From contig NZ_NEVK01000003.1 of the NCBI RefSeq assembly GCF_002261265.1, positions 124,001 to 188,000 on the forward strand: 64,000 bases of DNA. Reading direction: 5' to 3'. The stretch comes from Bordetella genomosp. 7. Lineage in GTDB: Bacteria > Pseudomonadota > Gammaproteobacteria > Burkholderiales > Burkholderiaceae_B. The position numbers were made by a program, and so were the translations under genes. This document shows, piece after piece, positions 6,374 to 44,243 of the stretch; the first letter of the stretch is position 1; each line of letters begins with the position of its first letter. The notes below the pieces were generated by a model that worked only from the letters and a program-made list of their open reading frames with translations, did no database searches and was not told where the DNA came from.

Positions 6374-6577
6374 TGCTGACGTTTTGGTGTCAGACACCAT
6401 GCGGGTGTCAGACACCTGGAACACCAGAAGATGTAGTGCTGACGTTTTGGTGTCAGACACCCTGCGGGTGTCAGACACCTGGAGCACCTGGAAATGGCCG
6501 AACGCCGTGTTCGGTGTCAGACTCCCGCAGGGTGTCTGACACCATCCCGTGCGTGATCCCTCAGGGTGCCTGACACC
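6363..6577. repeat. Repeat cluster with 63-bp tandem duplication and 13-bp REP-like hairpins
   Basis: Copies of GGTGTCAGACACC or close variants lie at 6386-6398, 6404-6416, 6449-6461, 6467-6479, 6513-6525, 6531-6543 and 6565-6577. Each 13-mer is near-palindromic around one central base, and neighbours 5 nt apart can pair into 31-nt hairpins. The block from 6363 (last codons of the DUF1801 gene, including its stop) to about 6425 is repeated 63 bp further on with two changes. The cluster fills the space between two convergent genes and may serve as a two-way terminator or REP-like element. Confidence 0.85.
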
Positions 6578-18703: not shown

Positions 18704-18747
18704 CCTTTGTCAGCTGCGTTGCTTTTTTTGGGGGGGTGTCTGACACC
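18704..18747. repeat. Left half of a repeat hairpin split by the insertion sequence
   Basis: GGTGTCTGACACC at 18735-18747 is the left arm of a 29-nt hairpin whose right arm is at 20178-20190 beyond the insertion sequence. The preceding bases (about 18706-18728, with GCTGCGTTGCTTT) resemble those before the third 13-mer on the other side (GTTGCGTTGCTTT at about 20259-20271), so the flanks are parts of one older repeat family. Confidence 0.8.
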
Positions 18748-18786
18748 TTTGTGAACTGACCCCACAAAGTTGGACGGTTTTGACCG

Positions 18787-19623
18787 TTATGTGGCCAGGA
18801 GCTGAGTTCTGTATTGCACGGGGCTCAGCCCGTTGAGTTTAAGCTTGATGCGCTCGTGATTGTAGTAATGGATATATCGGGCGATTCCGTCCTTTAGCTG
18901 CTCAATGGTCTGGAAGGTGCTCAGGTGGTAGAACTCGGCCTTGAGAGTGCCGAAGAAGCTCTCGATGGCCGCATTGTCCAGGCAGTTGCCTCGTCGTGAC
19001 ATGCTAGGGGTCACGCCGTGTTGCGCCAACAGTTCGCGGTAGGCGGGCATCTGGTACTGCCAGCCCTGATCCGAGTGCAGGATGGGACGCTCGGACGGGC
19101 CCAGCCGCGTGCAAGCCTGTTTGAGCATGTTGGCAACCATGGCAAAGCTTGGCCGGGTGGCCATTTCGTAGGCAAGGATCTCGCCGTTACAAAGGTCCAT
19201 CACCGGCGAGAGATACAGCTTCTGCGCGCCGACTTTGAACTCGGTCACATCGGTGGCCCACTTCTTGTTCGGCTGCGCGGCCTGGAATTGGCGTTGCAGC
19301 ACATTGGGGGCAAGCTGGTTGAGTGCGCCACGATAAGAGCGATATTTCTTGACCCGCACGCAAGACTTCAACCGCAGCAAGCCCATCAAGCGCTGCACGG
19401 TCTTGTGATTAACCGGCCAGCCTTGCTGGCGCACGACTTCGGTGATGCGCCGATAGCCATAGCGTCCTTGGTGCTGTTCAAAAATGGCGCAAATCCGGGC
19501 CTTCAACGACGCATACTTGTCACCGGCTTGCCCGGCCCGCCACTGGTAATAAAAGGTGCTGCGCGGCAGGCCTGCCACCGACAACAGGTCGGCCAGGGGA
19601 AAGTGTTGCCTTAGTTCAAGCAC
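18787..19623 (-). CDS. IS3-family transposase OrfB (DDE integrase domain)
   Basis: 278 residues from a GTG at 19623, normally made as the C-terminal part of an OrfAB fusion. It has the HTH_21-like segment QGRYGYRRITEVVRQQGWPV and an rve integrase core: first Asp in KKWATDVTEFKV, second in ILHSDQGWQYQ, Glu in DNAAIESFFGTLKAEF. The end HYYNHERIKLKLNGLSPVQY is the standard IS150 type. The catalytic residues are intact, so the element may be active. Confidence 0.93.
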   Translation of the reverse strand: MLELRQHFPLADLLSVAGLPRSTFYYQWRAGQAGDKYASLKARICAIFEQHQGRYGYRRITEVVRQQGWPVNHKTVQRLMGLLRLKSCVRVKKYRSYRGALNQLAPNVLQRQFQAAQPNKKWATDVTEFKVGAQKLYLSPVMDLCNGEILAYEMATRPSFAMVANMLKQACTRLGPSERPILHSDQGWQYQMPAYRELLAQHGVTPSMSRRGNCLDNAAIESFFGTLKAEFYHLSTFQTIEQLKDGIARYIHYYNHERIKLKLNGLSPVQYRTQLLAT

Positions 19624-20129
19624 TATTTGCGCTTTTTCTGCTGCGCCGATTTCTGTTTGGCTTGAACCAAGGCATCGAGCTTTTTTAGGTACGCGTTCTC
19701 CGTGCGCAAGAACTGCAGCTCCTTGAGCAGGTCTTCGCGGGTGCGTGCGGCGTCAGGCAGCGCCGGCTTCTTGGGTAAAACCATCCTGGGAGGCCCTCCT
19801 GTATATGTTCGGGCTGAACCCTGTACATCATACTGGCGCTCCCAGCGAGCGATGATATTGAAGTTACGGATGTCGAACCACGCCGCCGTCTGGCGGTACG
19901 ACAGCTCATGCTGCTTCATGTGCAGCAGAACCTTCCATTTGAACGCCTCGTCATAGCGGACACGCTTGGTACGGAGGCCGGCCACACCATGGATCCGATA
20001 GGCCGCCACCCAGCGGCGCAGCGCATGTCGACTCACACCATGACGTTGCGCTACCGCCGCAATCCCGGCATTGCCCTCGCAATACTCCTGAGCCGACGCC
20101 AGTTTGACCGATTCACTGTACTTCTCCAT
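19623..20129 (-). CDS. IS3-family transposase OrfA (helix-turn-helix protein)
   Basis: 168 residues with two helix-turn-helix units (AAVAQRHGVSRHALRRWVAA and LSYRQTAAWFDIRNFNIIARWE) and a Leu/Lys-rich C-terminal coiled coil, the usual IS150 OrfA plan. It binds the IS ends. It ends one base into orfB. An AAAAAG run about 10 nt before the stop lies where a -1 ribosomal slip would join it to orfB and read on as KAQIVLELRQ. Confidence 0.93.
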   Translation of the reverse strand: MEKYSESVKLASAQEYCEGNAGIAAVAQRHGVSRHALRRWVAAYRIHGVAGLRTKRVRYDEAFKWKVLLHMKQHELSYRQTAAWFDIRNFNIIARWERQYDVQGSARTYTGGPPRMVLPKKPALPDAARTREDLLKELQFLRTENAYLKKLDALVQAKQKSAQQKKRK

Positions 20130-20177
20130 GAAATAACCCCAAAGTTGATATCCAACTTTTGGGGGTCACTTCACTTT

Positions 20178-20284
20178 GGTGTCAGACACCGTCAAGAGCG
20201 GAGAGGCCTTTTCACCCTTGGTGTCAGACACCGTCAAGAGCGGAGAGACCTTTTGTCGGTTGCGTTGCTTTGGTGTCAGACACC
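20178..20284. repeat. Repeat cluster right of the insertion sequence
   Basis: GGTGTCAGACACC occurs at 20178-20190 (right arm of the split hairpin), 20220-20232 and 20272-20284. The first two are followed by the same GTCAAGAGCGGAGAG sequence, a 42-bp tandem unit. The remaining gene-free bases up to the TctC start at 20442 hold only a GGAGA ribosome site; no promoter was recognised. Confidence 0.8.
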
Positions 20285-31414: not shown

Positions 31415-31692
31415 GGTGTCTGACACCCTACGGGAGTCAGACACCGGATGAAAGGACGTCTGCCTTCGCGTCGAGACGTATACATGGTGTCTGACTCCCT
31501 ACTGGAGTCAGACTCCGGATGAAAGGGCGTCTGCCTTTGCGTCGAGACGAATACATGGTGTCTGACACCCTACGGGAGTCAGGCACCGGATGAAAGGACG
31601 TCTGCCTTCACGTCGAGACGTATACACGGTGTCTGACTCCCGAAGGGTGTCAGACACCTTCACGTCCAAACGAATACACGGTGTCTGACATC
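31415..31692. repeat. 71-bp tandem array of REP-like hairpins
   Basis: Units begin at 31415, 31486, 31557 and 31628 (period 71 bp), with a shortened fourth unit and a last partial 13-mer at 31680. Each full unit has a hairpin made of GGTGTCTGAC(A/T)CC, a CTACx loop and GGAGTCAGAC(A/T)CC, then a conserved spacer of about 40 bp containing GGATGAAAGG and GTCGAGACG. Arms switch between ACACC and ACTCC while keeping most pairing. It fills the 376-bp gap between the convergent lyase and folK genes; nothing else was seen there. Confidence 0.9.
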
Positions 31693-36236: not shown

Positions 36237-36370
36237 GGTGTCTGACACCTTCGGAGTCAGACACCTGGTTGAGAAGCTGACGTTGATGACGGTACCCTGT
36301 TCGGTGTCTGACTCCGAAGTGCACTGACCTCACAAAGTTTCGGTGTCTGACTCCGAAGGTGTCAGACACC
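36237..36370. repeat. Two 29-nt REP-like hairpins between purM and miaA
   Basis: Hairpin one is at 36237-36265: GGTGTCTGACACC, TTC loop, GGAGTCAGACACC. Hairpin two is at 36342-36370: GGTGTCTGACTCC, GAA loop, GGTGTCAGACACC. A third left arm, GGTGTCTGACTCC, lies at 36303-36315 followed by GAA and an insertion-sequence end remnant. The 13+3+13 layout equals the reconstructed empty site of the insertion sequence at 18751. Confidence 0.88.
36319..36339. mobile_element. 21-nt remnant of the IS3-type element's left end
   Basis: GTGCACTGACC then TCACAAAGTT matches the left end of the element at 18751 in 19 of 21 positions. It follows a repeat arm plus GAA (36303-36318), the same position relative to the hairpin as in the complete copy (arm plus TTT). 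It appears to be what is left after insertion in a hairpin loop and later deletion. Confidence 0.75.
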
Positions 36371-44008: not shown

Positions 44009-44243
44009 GGGCGGCGCACGTTGTCGGTTGGGAACAGCGCGGAGAGGCGGAAGGTGTCTGACACCCCTGTCGGGGAGTCAGACACCGGCCCGGCCCCGGC
44101 TCCGGCCCCCGTACCGTCGGCAATGACAGACGCCGGCAGGTGGGGGTGAGGTACGTCGTCGGTTGGGAGCAGCGCGGAGATGCGGAAGGTGTCTGACACC
44201 CCTGTCGGGGAGTCAGACACCGATCTCGCCGGCTCCGGCACCG
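43976..44243. repeat. 135-bp tandem duplication of fumC 3' end plus REP-like hairpin
   Basis: The block from 43976 (GTACCGTC in the last fumC codons) through the stop and a hairpin at 44053-44086 is repeated from 44111, with the second hairpin at 44188-44221. Each hairpin has GGTGTCTGACACC and GGAGTCAGACACC arms with an 8-nt loop. The second copy carries an altered, untranslated version of the fumC tail (11 codons). Both copies end in CCGGCTCCGGC-like sequence. Confidence 0.88.

Follow-up and report, generated by a model that had tools for sequence, protein, structure and literature searches.

An IS3-family insertion sequence of Bordetella very probably targets the axis of RAYT-linked REP hairpins, and many of its relatives lie at terminator-like hairpins

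The window analysed here, a stretch of 64,000 nucleotides from Bordetella genomosp. 7 (assembly GCF_002261265.1, contig NZ_NEVK01000003.1), contains an insertion sequence (IS) that splits the hairpin GGTGTCTGACACC-TTT-GGTGTCAGACACC at its axis. It is highly probable that the element, of the IS3 family, is still active or was so recently and that its transposase selects as target the axis of symmetry in the RAYT-linked REP hairpins of the genus. The insertion sites of related elements suggest that the element and its relatives share a way of choosing landing sites. With less certainty, we favour the wider reading that a broad IS3 lineage, whose members were seen in Proteobacteria, in Bacteroidota and in a single metagenome assembly from Clostridia, targets hairpin symmetry, mostly that of intrinsic terminators. 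The lineage of the window element would have switched to the RAYT-linked REP, and the length of the target duplication would be read from the arm spacing rather than fixed by the transposase.

The element comprises 1,422 bp at positions 18752–20173 on the minus strand, with ends TG..CA assigned from the sequence, from similarity and from a comparison of copies. It is intact, and both of its genes are full-length open frames. OrfA (168 aa; 19623–20129, minus strand) contains a helix-turn-helix (HTH_28 and HTH_Tnp_1; PF13518, 6.9e-15, and PF01527, 2.9e-10). OrfB (278 aa; 18787–19623, minus strand) is an integrase-core transposase which, according to the ORF coordinates, lies in the -1 frame relative to the upstream OrfA. 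It reaches 353.5 bits against NCBIfam NF033516 for IS3-family transposases (cut-off 160) and matches the integrase core PF00665 with 1.4e-26; inspection of the translation by eye located the catalytic D, D and E, the last two 35 residues apart. The DDE integrase core, the helix-turn-helix protein encoded upstream, the terminal inverted repeats TG..CA and the short target duplication are those of the IS3 family, to which a preliminary description of this DNA had already assigned the element correctly. A predicted RNA hairpin at the OrfA-side end (20128–20174, minus strand; -29.5 kcal/mol for 20090–20177, z -3.64) extends into the OrfA start codon and could protect OrfA from read-through transcription. 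The element is flanked by a gene for a LysR-type regulator and one for a TctC-type receptor and lies inside neither. The source genome (G000) harbors five full or nearly full copies with a rounded identity of 100%; two copies are unbroken and five contig ends fall inside copies, at 99–100% identity. Because these copies are nearly identical, the element is regarded as active or recently active.

The left arm GGTGTCTGACACC (18735–18747, plus strand) and the right arm GGTGTCAGACACC (20178–20190, plus strand) form a perfect hairpin without mismatch. TTT is present at 18748–18750 and at 20175–20177. That TTT borders the element on both flanks, with perfect inverted copies of the 13-mer outside, had been described beforehand and was confirmed from the window sequence. 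TTT had furthermore been taken for the duplicated target; the TTT repeats are there, but the duplication is better read as the 5-bp CTTTG, which consists of TTT with the closing C and G (left copy 18747–18751, right copy 20174–20178, plus strand). Two sets of boundaries fit the window copy, namely GTG..CAC with a 3-bp duplication and TG..CA with a 5-bp duplication. The latter is preferred, because the copy at the ends of contigs C1 and C3 has TG..CA ends, a CGGT duplication and no constant outer G on both sides. This choice holds if the two contig ends belong to one insertion, the outer base differing from G on the C1 side.

For verification, the preliminary description had proposed aligning the flanks of all copies, and a majority of copies outside such hairpins was to speak against recognition of the hairpin. 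This outcome did not occur. When the window element is taken together with a form of 82% DNA identity from a second genome of the genus (G001), nine of ten insertions lie at a hairpin loop; two of these nine are one-sided, one is an inferred pairing of contig ends, and all ten come from two genomes only, some possibly not independent. The source genome contains two unbroken copies in a loop, with the duplications CTTTG and CGAAG. The ends of contigs C5 and C2, a presumed pair, give CTTCG in a loop, and the one-sided flank at the start of C7 is also at a loop. The presumed pair C1/C3 (L005 and L004), with the duplication CGGT, is located at a hairpin foot and is the only one of the ten off the loop. 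In G001, all four full copies are in a loop (duplications CCTGCGG, CTTCG, CTGCG and CTTGCG), and one truncated copy retains its loop-side flank. If the foot insertion is real, the specificity for the loop is not absolute. Recognition of the hairpin, as originally proposed, is thus supported by the nine loop sites but qualified by the foot insertion and by the other hairpins that relatives use. Type 1 of the IS/REP associations of Tobes and Pareja comprises elements with 100% of their copies at the same REP position, as against nine of ten here. Hence, the IS/REP association is very strong yet incomplete.

At the seven two-sided loop sites the duplication corresponds to all sequence between the 12-bp arms, which amounts to 5 bp at five sites and to 6 or 7 bp at the others. 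Consequently, each arm has its strand-joining point at a constant distance, 1 bp inside the 13-bp arm. At L090 a further C-G pair after the arms would give a 14-bp stem, and the duplication is still 7 bp, as measured from the 12-bp arms. The cut does not shift with the longer stem, so that at this one site the arms, rather than the loop edge, seem to be measured. Target duplications of 3–5 bp are usual for the IS3 family; those of the window element and its congener span 4–7 bp, some of them beyond this range. Given the 431 hairpins within 4.13 Mb, a single insertion would strike one exact position by chance with a probability of about 1e-4, and three insertions with one of about 1e-12; this estimate omits the insertion at the hairpin foot and the one-sided copy in the source genome.

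By the stricter definition, which demands linkage to a RAYT-like gene, the repeat is a true REP. The hairpin pattern has 431 forward matches in the source genome (about 431 hairpins), compared with the more than about 100 copies of a palindrome by which a REP is recognized. Its congeners have 330 (G001), 835 (G002), 274 (G003), 222 (G004), 89 (G006) and 76 (G008) matches, and among the nine genomes of the genus searched there are none in G005 and G007. A RAYT-like gene (Y1 transposase, PF01797) is present in six of the nine genomes, the search giving no match in G003, G005 and G007. Hairpins occur on both sides of the gene at all six PF01797 loci. These genes are called RAYT because of the hairpins on both sides and because of their family membership, PF01797 not being a RAYT-specific model. 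The identity of the repeat as a REP follows from the hairpins flanking all six loci and from G005 and G007 having neither hairpins nor gene. Against a strict REP/RAYT pairing counts G003, with 274 hairpins yet no PF01797 match. The sole PF01797 match of the source genome (L099, G000:C4:169043-169381) contains one in-frame TGA and is found beside about 431 hairpins. In view of this in-frame TGA and of the missing match in G003, REP populations may persist after loss of their transposase.

GNA triloops, read on one strand, occur in 52 of 85 hairpins of the examined loci, a set that includes the window and in which some loci overlap. In 50 of these 52 a T.T mismatch is located at position 11, in agreement with the imperfect hairpin of a REP. 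GNA triloops form very stable DNA mini-hairpins. Together with the T.T mismatch they perhaps reflect selection on the single-stranded form, as for a RAYT substrate. Regular tandem arrays of REP hairpins were also observed on contig C1 of the source genome, at 92263–92671, 237880–238338 and 254296–255064, with periods of about 76, 75 and 67 bp. REPs of the RAYT type are described as carrying a GT(A/G)G head next to the hairpin (PMC2817692).

Within the window, the 13-mer has 43 matches where 0.07 are expected (at most one mismatch; both strands, near-palindromic copies being scored twice; maximum of 2 in 100 shuffles). Beside the split hairpin are two further single REP arms (20220–20232 and 20272–20284, plus strand). 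Arrays of three hairpins (6386–6543), of four (31415–31658) and of two with 8 nt between the arms (44053–44221) lie elsewhere on the plus strand. Two intact hairpins of the plus strand, at 36237–36265 (loop TTC) and 36342–36370 (loop GAA), had been likened to the split one as further examples of a 13+3+13 form. This form is indeed present, but each contains one mismatched pair (A.A and T.T). Of the 11 intact window hairpins found by a regular expression, no others have a 3-nt gap, the rest having 5 or 8 nt. A possible relic of 22 nt (36319–36340, plus strand) resembles the left end of the IS with 5 mismatches over 24 nt. It directly follows GGTGTCTGACTCC-GAA, which corresponds to the loop position, and looks like the remnant of an earlier insertion at a loop.

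The LysR-type gene adjoining the element is present in eight of the nine genomes. In the proposed comparison with strains without the insertion, one of the seven other genomes with this gene, G002, keeps a hairpin array without IS between the LysR-type and TctC-type genes; five (G003, G004, G005, G006 and G008) have neither array nor IS at this locus, and G001 has different DNA downstream of the LysR-type gene. The REP array at the locus is thus itself variable, and we infer that the IS entered the array.

The preference for hairpins is not peculiar to the REP of this genus: many relatives centre on other, mostly terminator-like, hairpins. Loci of relatives were found by protein and DNA similarity, their ends were then located, and hairpins at the junction were evaluated by a fixed score with a threshold of 10. 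A hairpin is present at 63 of 87 scored sites, six REP sites included. Re-pairing the flanks between loci for all 87 sites yielded a mean of 6.3% and a maximum of 11.9% in 20 repeats; this control is conservative, because A/T tracts and GC cores stay in it. Random flanking 60-mers, unmatched for intergenic position, gave a hairpin in 5 of 435 cases. Without the REP sites, 57 of 81 sites are positive, and the other 24 have no hairpin under the fixed criterion. By OrfB identity, the positives number 36 of 47 at 60% or above and 21 of 34 below. For non-REP sites with a duplication of at least 3 bp, 51 of 64 are positive; in 42 of the 51, axis and duplication centre are at most 1 bp apart. Tracts, meaning an A-tract ahead of the stem core or a T-tract behind it and counted without a control, are found at 52 of the 57 positive non-REP sites (A and T at 39, T only at 8, A only at 5); five have neither. 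Such tracts are absent from all six REP sites. Judged from sequence only, the tracts are terminator-like, as befits intrinsic and often bidirectional terminators. Positions 1–7 of the relatives' arms carry 0.2–0.7 bits, with little in common beyond a C/G-rich core and the outer A/T tracts. A tracking of the loop by the duplication length was also considered for the terminator group; integer and half-integer axis offsets numbered 32 and 19 (n=51), which is not counted as a result.

The 87 scored sites come from 102 loci, 15 of which were excluded because of weak ends, flanks that were too short, or an odd length or duplication. This tolerant scoring was devised after the sites of a first, strict scoring had been seen. 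Under the strict scoring 54 of 71 sites were positive (10.8% in the re-paired control, maximum 23.9%), and 31 of the 102 loci were left out, owing to the lack of a duplication of at least 3 bp, a short flank, odd length or duplicates. Twelve of the 87 sites, all from Bacteroidota, with weak end scores and ending in TA, not CA, were kept by hand after their flanks had been seen. Without them the counts are 54 of 75 in total and 48 of 69 for non-REP sites, with the axis at most 1 bp away in 37 of 43. L122, L127 and the plasmid relatives L138–L140 had no usable ends and were left unscored. A later set consisted of 15 loci, five seen before and ten new plasmid loci, two of the 15 being dropped for doubtful ends. 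Here, 8 of 13 scored loci are positive, 4 of 8 among the newly fetched plasmid loci, and the axis is at most 1 bp away in only 4 of the 8 positives. Thus, the hairpin pattern is weaker in this set.

A survey of the family gave a strong DNA match in 14 of 268 genomes. The twelve besides G000 and G001 (69–72% DNA identity, at most two places each) contributed 19 loci, 17 of them hairpin-positive. Bacillota are represented by one positive locus, L059 from a Clostridia metagenome assembly, and the scored Bacillaceae loci L064 and L080 have no hairpin. A DNA search of E. coli for relatives of the IS returned no match, and a search of viral contigs for OrfA relatives found none. A beta-proteobacterial host, which the preliminary description had supposed, fits the relatives found.

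In the OrfB tree the REP users of G000 and G001 constitute one clade (100/100). Nearest to it is L108 (99/88), located in a hairpin with an A-tract, followed by L021 (98/63) in a GC palindrome without tracts; neither site is a REP of the genus type. This tree, whose deep branches are weak, is most simply read as a move from terminators to the REP. In OrfA, the window element has 73% identity with G001, 39–48% with 11 relatives and 33% with IS150. Its OrfB is 57–58% identical to IS150/ISKpn8 (57% to IS150), and IS150 groups on a separate branch, with weak deep support. IS150 and ISKpn8, named here by NCBI annotation, share the TG..CA ends and a similar length (1,443 bp) with the window element. 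Unlike it, they occupy another branch and lack a compact hairpin (loop of at most 12 nt) at their sites in 14 copies (13 of IS150 and 1 of ISKpn8, several sharing a site), the best score being 6.5 against the threshold of 10. Several IS150 copies adjoin hok genes (L135, L141, L153–L157, L160, L162 and L163). By eye, these sites read GCC.C or similar, about 20 nt, a 3-bp duplication and then YGRGGC, perhaps an inverted repeat with a wider loop.

We propose that two transposase subunits bind both arms as a symmetric site and that the two IS ends would be joined just inside the arms, 1 bp inside each 13-bp arm, the arm spacing thereby setting the duplication length. OrfA may act as the target reader. 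To judge from the relatives, hairpin-axis targeting presumably predates the window element: relatives would use terminator-like hairpins, and the window lineage would have moved to the REP with its approximately 430 sites, presumed harmless. On balance, we lean slightly towards a transposase that reads a double-stranded dyad; reading of an extruded hairpin or cruciform is somewhat less probable. In its purest form, which concerns the mode of recognition only, the structural explanation has the transposase act on the loop of a single-stranded hairpin or extruded cruciform of any sequence. The scant sequence common to the relatives' arms beyond core and tracts agrees with this, as do the GNA triloops in 52 of 85 REP loops. 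We nevertheless consider it rather doubtful, since the duplication at L090, albeit one site, is counted from the 12-bp arms despite the extra C-G pair, and since IS150/ISKpn8 show no compact hairpin in their 14 copies.

Targeting of the axis also has to be weighed against explanations that require no target choice. The position of the window copy between two genes would be expected if insertion were wide and copies survived only in harmless repeat arrays. Such an intergenic bias, however, fails to predict a base-exact axis, which is seen in nine of the ten insertions examined and, to within 1 bp, in 42 of 51 relatives with a hairpin; survivor bias is therefore quite improbable. The arms form part of what can be read as a single 40-bp inverted repeat with 85% complementarity, as if the 13-bp arms were extended terminal repeats moving with the element. 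But a target duplication that varies among copies separates the arm from the IS end, and the arms themselves vary (GGTGTCTGACAC, GGTGTCTGACTC and GGTGTCAGGCAC). Moreover, about 431 hairpins exist without an IS, and in G002 the LysR-type and TctC-type genes enclose an array without IS. This explanation is refuted by the variation in arms and duplications and retains hardly any credibility. Finally, five contig ends of the assembly fall in copies of the element, as chance or an assembly artefact might have it. The same placement is seen in the two unbroken copies of the source genome and in the four of G001, a single-contig genome, and leaves this explanation a practically negligible probability. 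Insertion at the symmetry axis by choice of the transposase is thus our preferred reading.

Targeting of REPs by IS3-family elements is established (PMC1525189), and that source presents IS targeting of REPs case by case for several IS families. What is new is the REP of this host, the variability of the duplication and the relatives at terminators, the priority of the terminator pattern not being established. Among publications on the targeting of terminators by IS3/IS150 elements and on the specificity of the IS150 group, with subscription papers, ISfinder and TnPedia outside the scope, titles and the first lines of abstracts reveal none that reports terminator targeting; the parts of PMC3606827, PMC4133298 and PMC9208149 considered contain no report of IS3 terminator targeting either. 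With the 13-mer strings as a literature term, none of the matches listed appeared related by title or start of abstract. By the criteria of PMC2817692, RAYTs have been found in gammaproteobacteria, a beta-proteobacterial case in Thauera being explained by transfer. REP-like repeats have been reported from Bordetellae (PMC1590033, PMC3733652), among them the Bor repeats, abundant REP-like stem-loops of 26–30 bp (PMC1590033). These resemble the hairpins of the genus at the level of description, not of a compared consensus.

REP targeting by the window element appears as a special case of a hairpin-axis preference common to many relatives, for which intrinsic terminators are the usual sites. If this is true, the preference has a simple reason in plentiful, presumably harmless sites; it predicts where such elements occur and what they disturb, namely termination, and the question of sequence versus structure becomes testable with designed hairpins. 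The REP/RAYT pair of the genus constitutes a second mobile system on the same hairpins. One selfish repeat family would then be the landing ground for another mobile element.

IS1397 and ISKpn1 reportedly enter the loop of palindromic units (REP/PU) of enterobacteria. The window element is like them in belonging to the IS3 family and in its insertion into REP/PU sequences and, in a comparison by description only, unlike them in the REP and the hosts concerned. According to experiments cited in PMC1525189, REPs can serve as insertion sites of IS1397, and it is apparently the transposases that determine the target. Class C group II introns use intrinsic terminators as landing sites (PMC3522654). 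These retroelements, however, enter the DNA downstream of the terminator rather than in the hairpin, and their mechanism is unrelated. The IS3-family element ISPsy8 of Pseudomonas syringae has five copies, all at one point, the symmetry axis of a REP hairpin (PMC1525189). Compared by description only, its duplication measures 3 bp, whereas that of the window element and its congener measures 5–7 bp and tracks the arm spacing.
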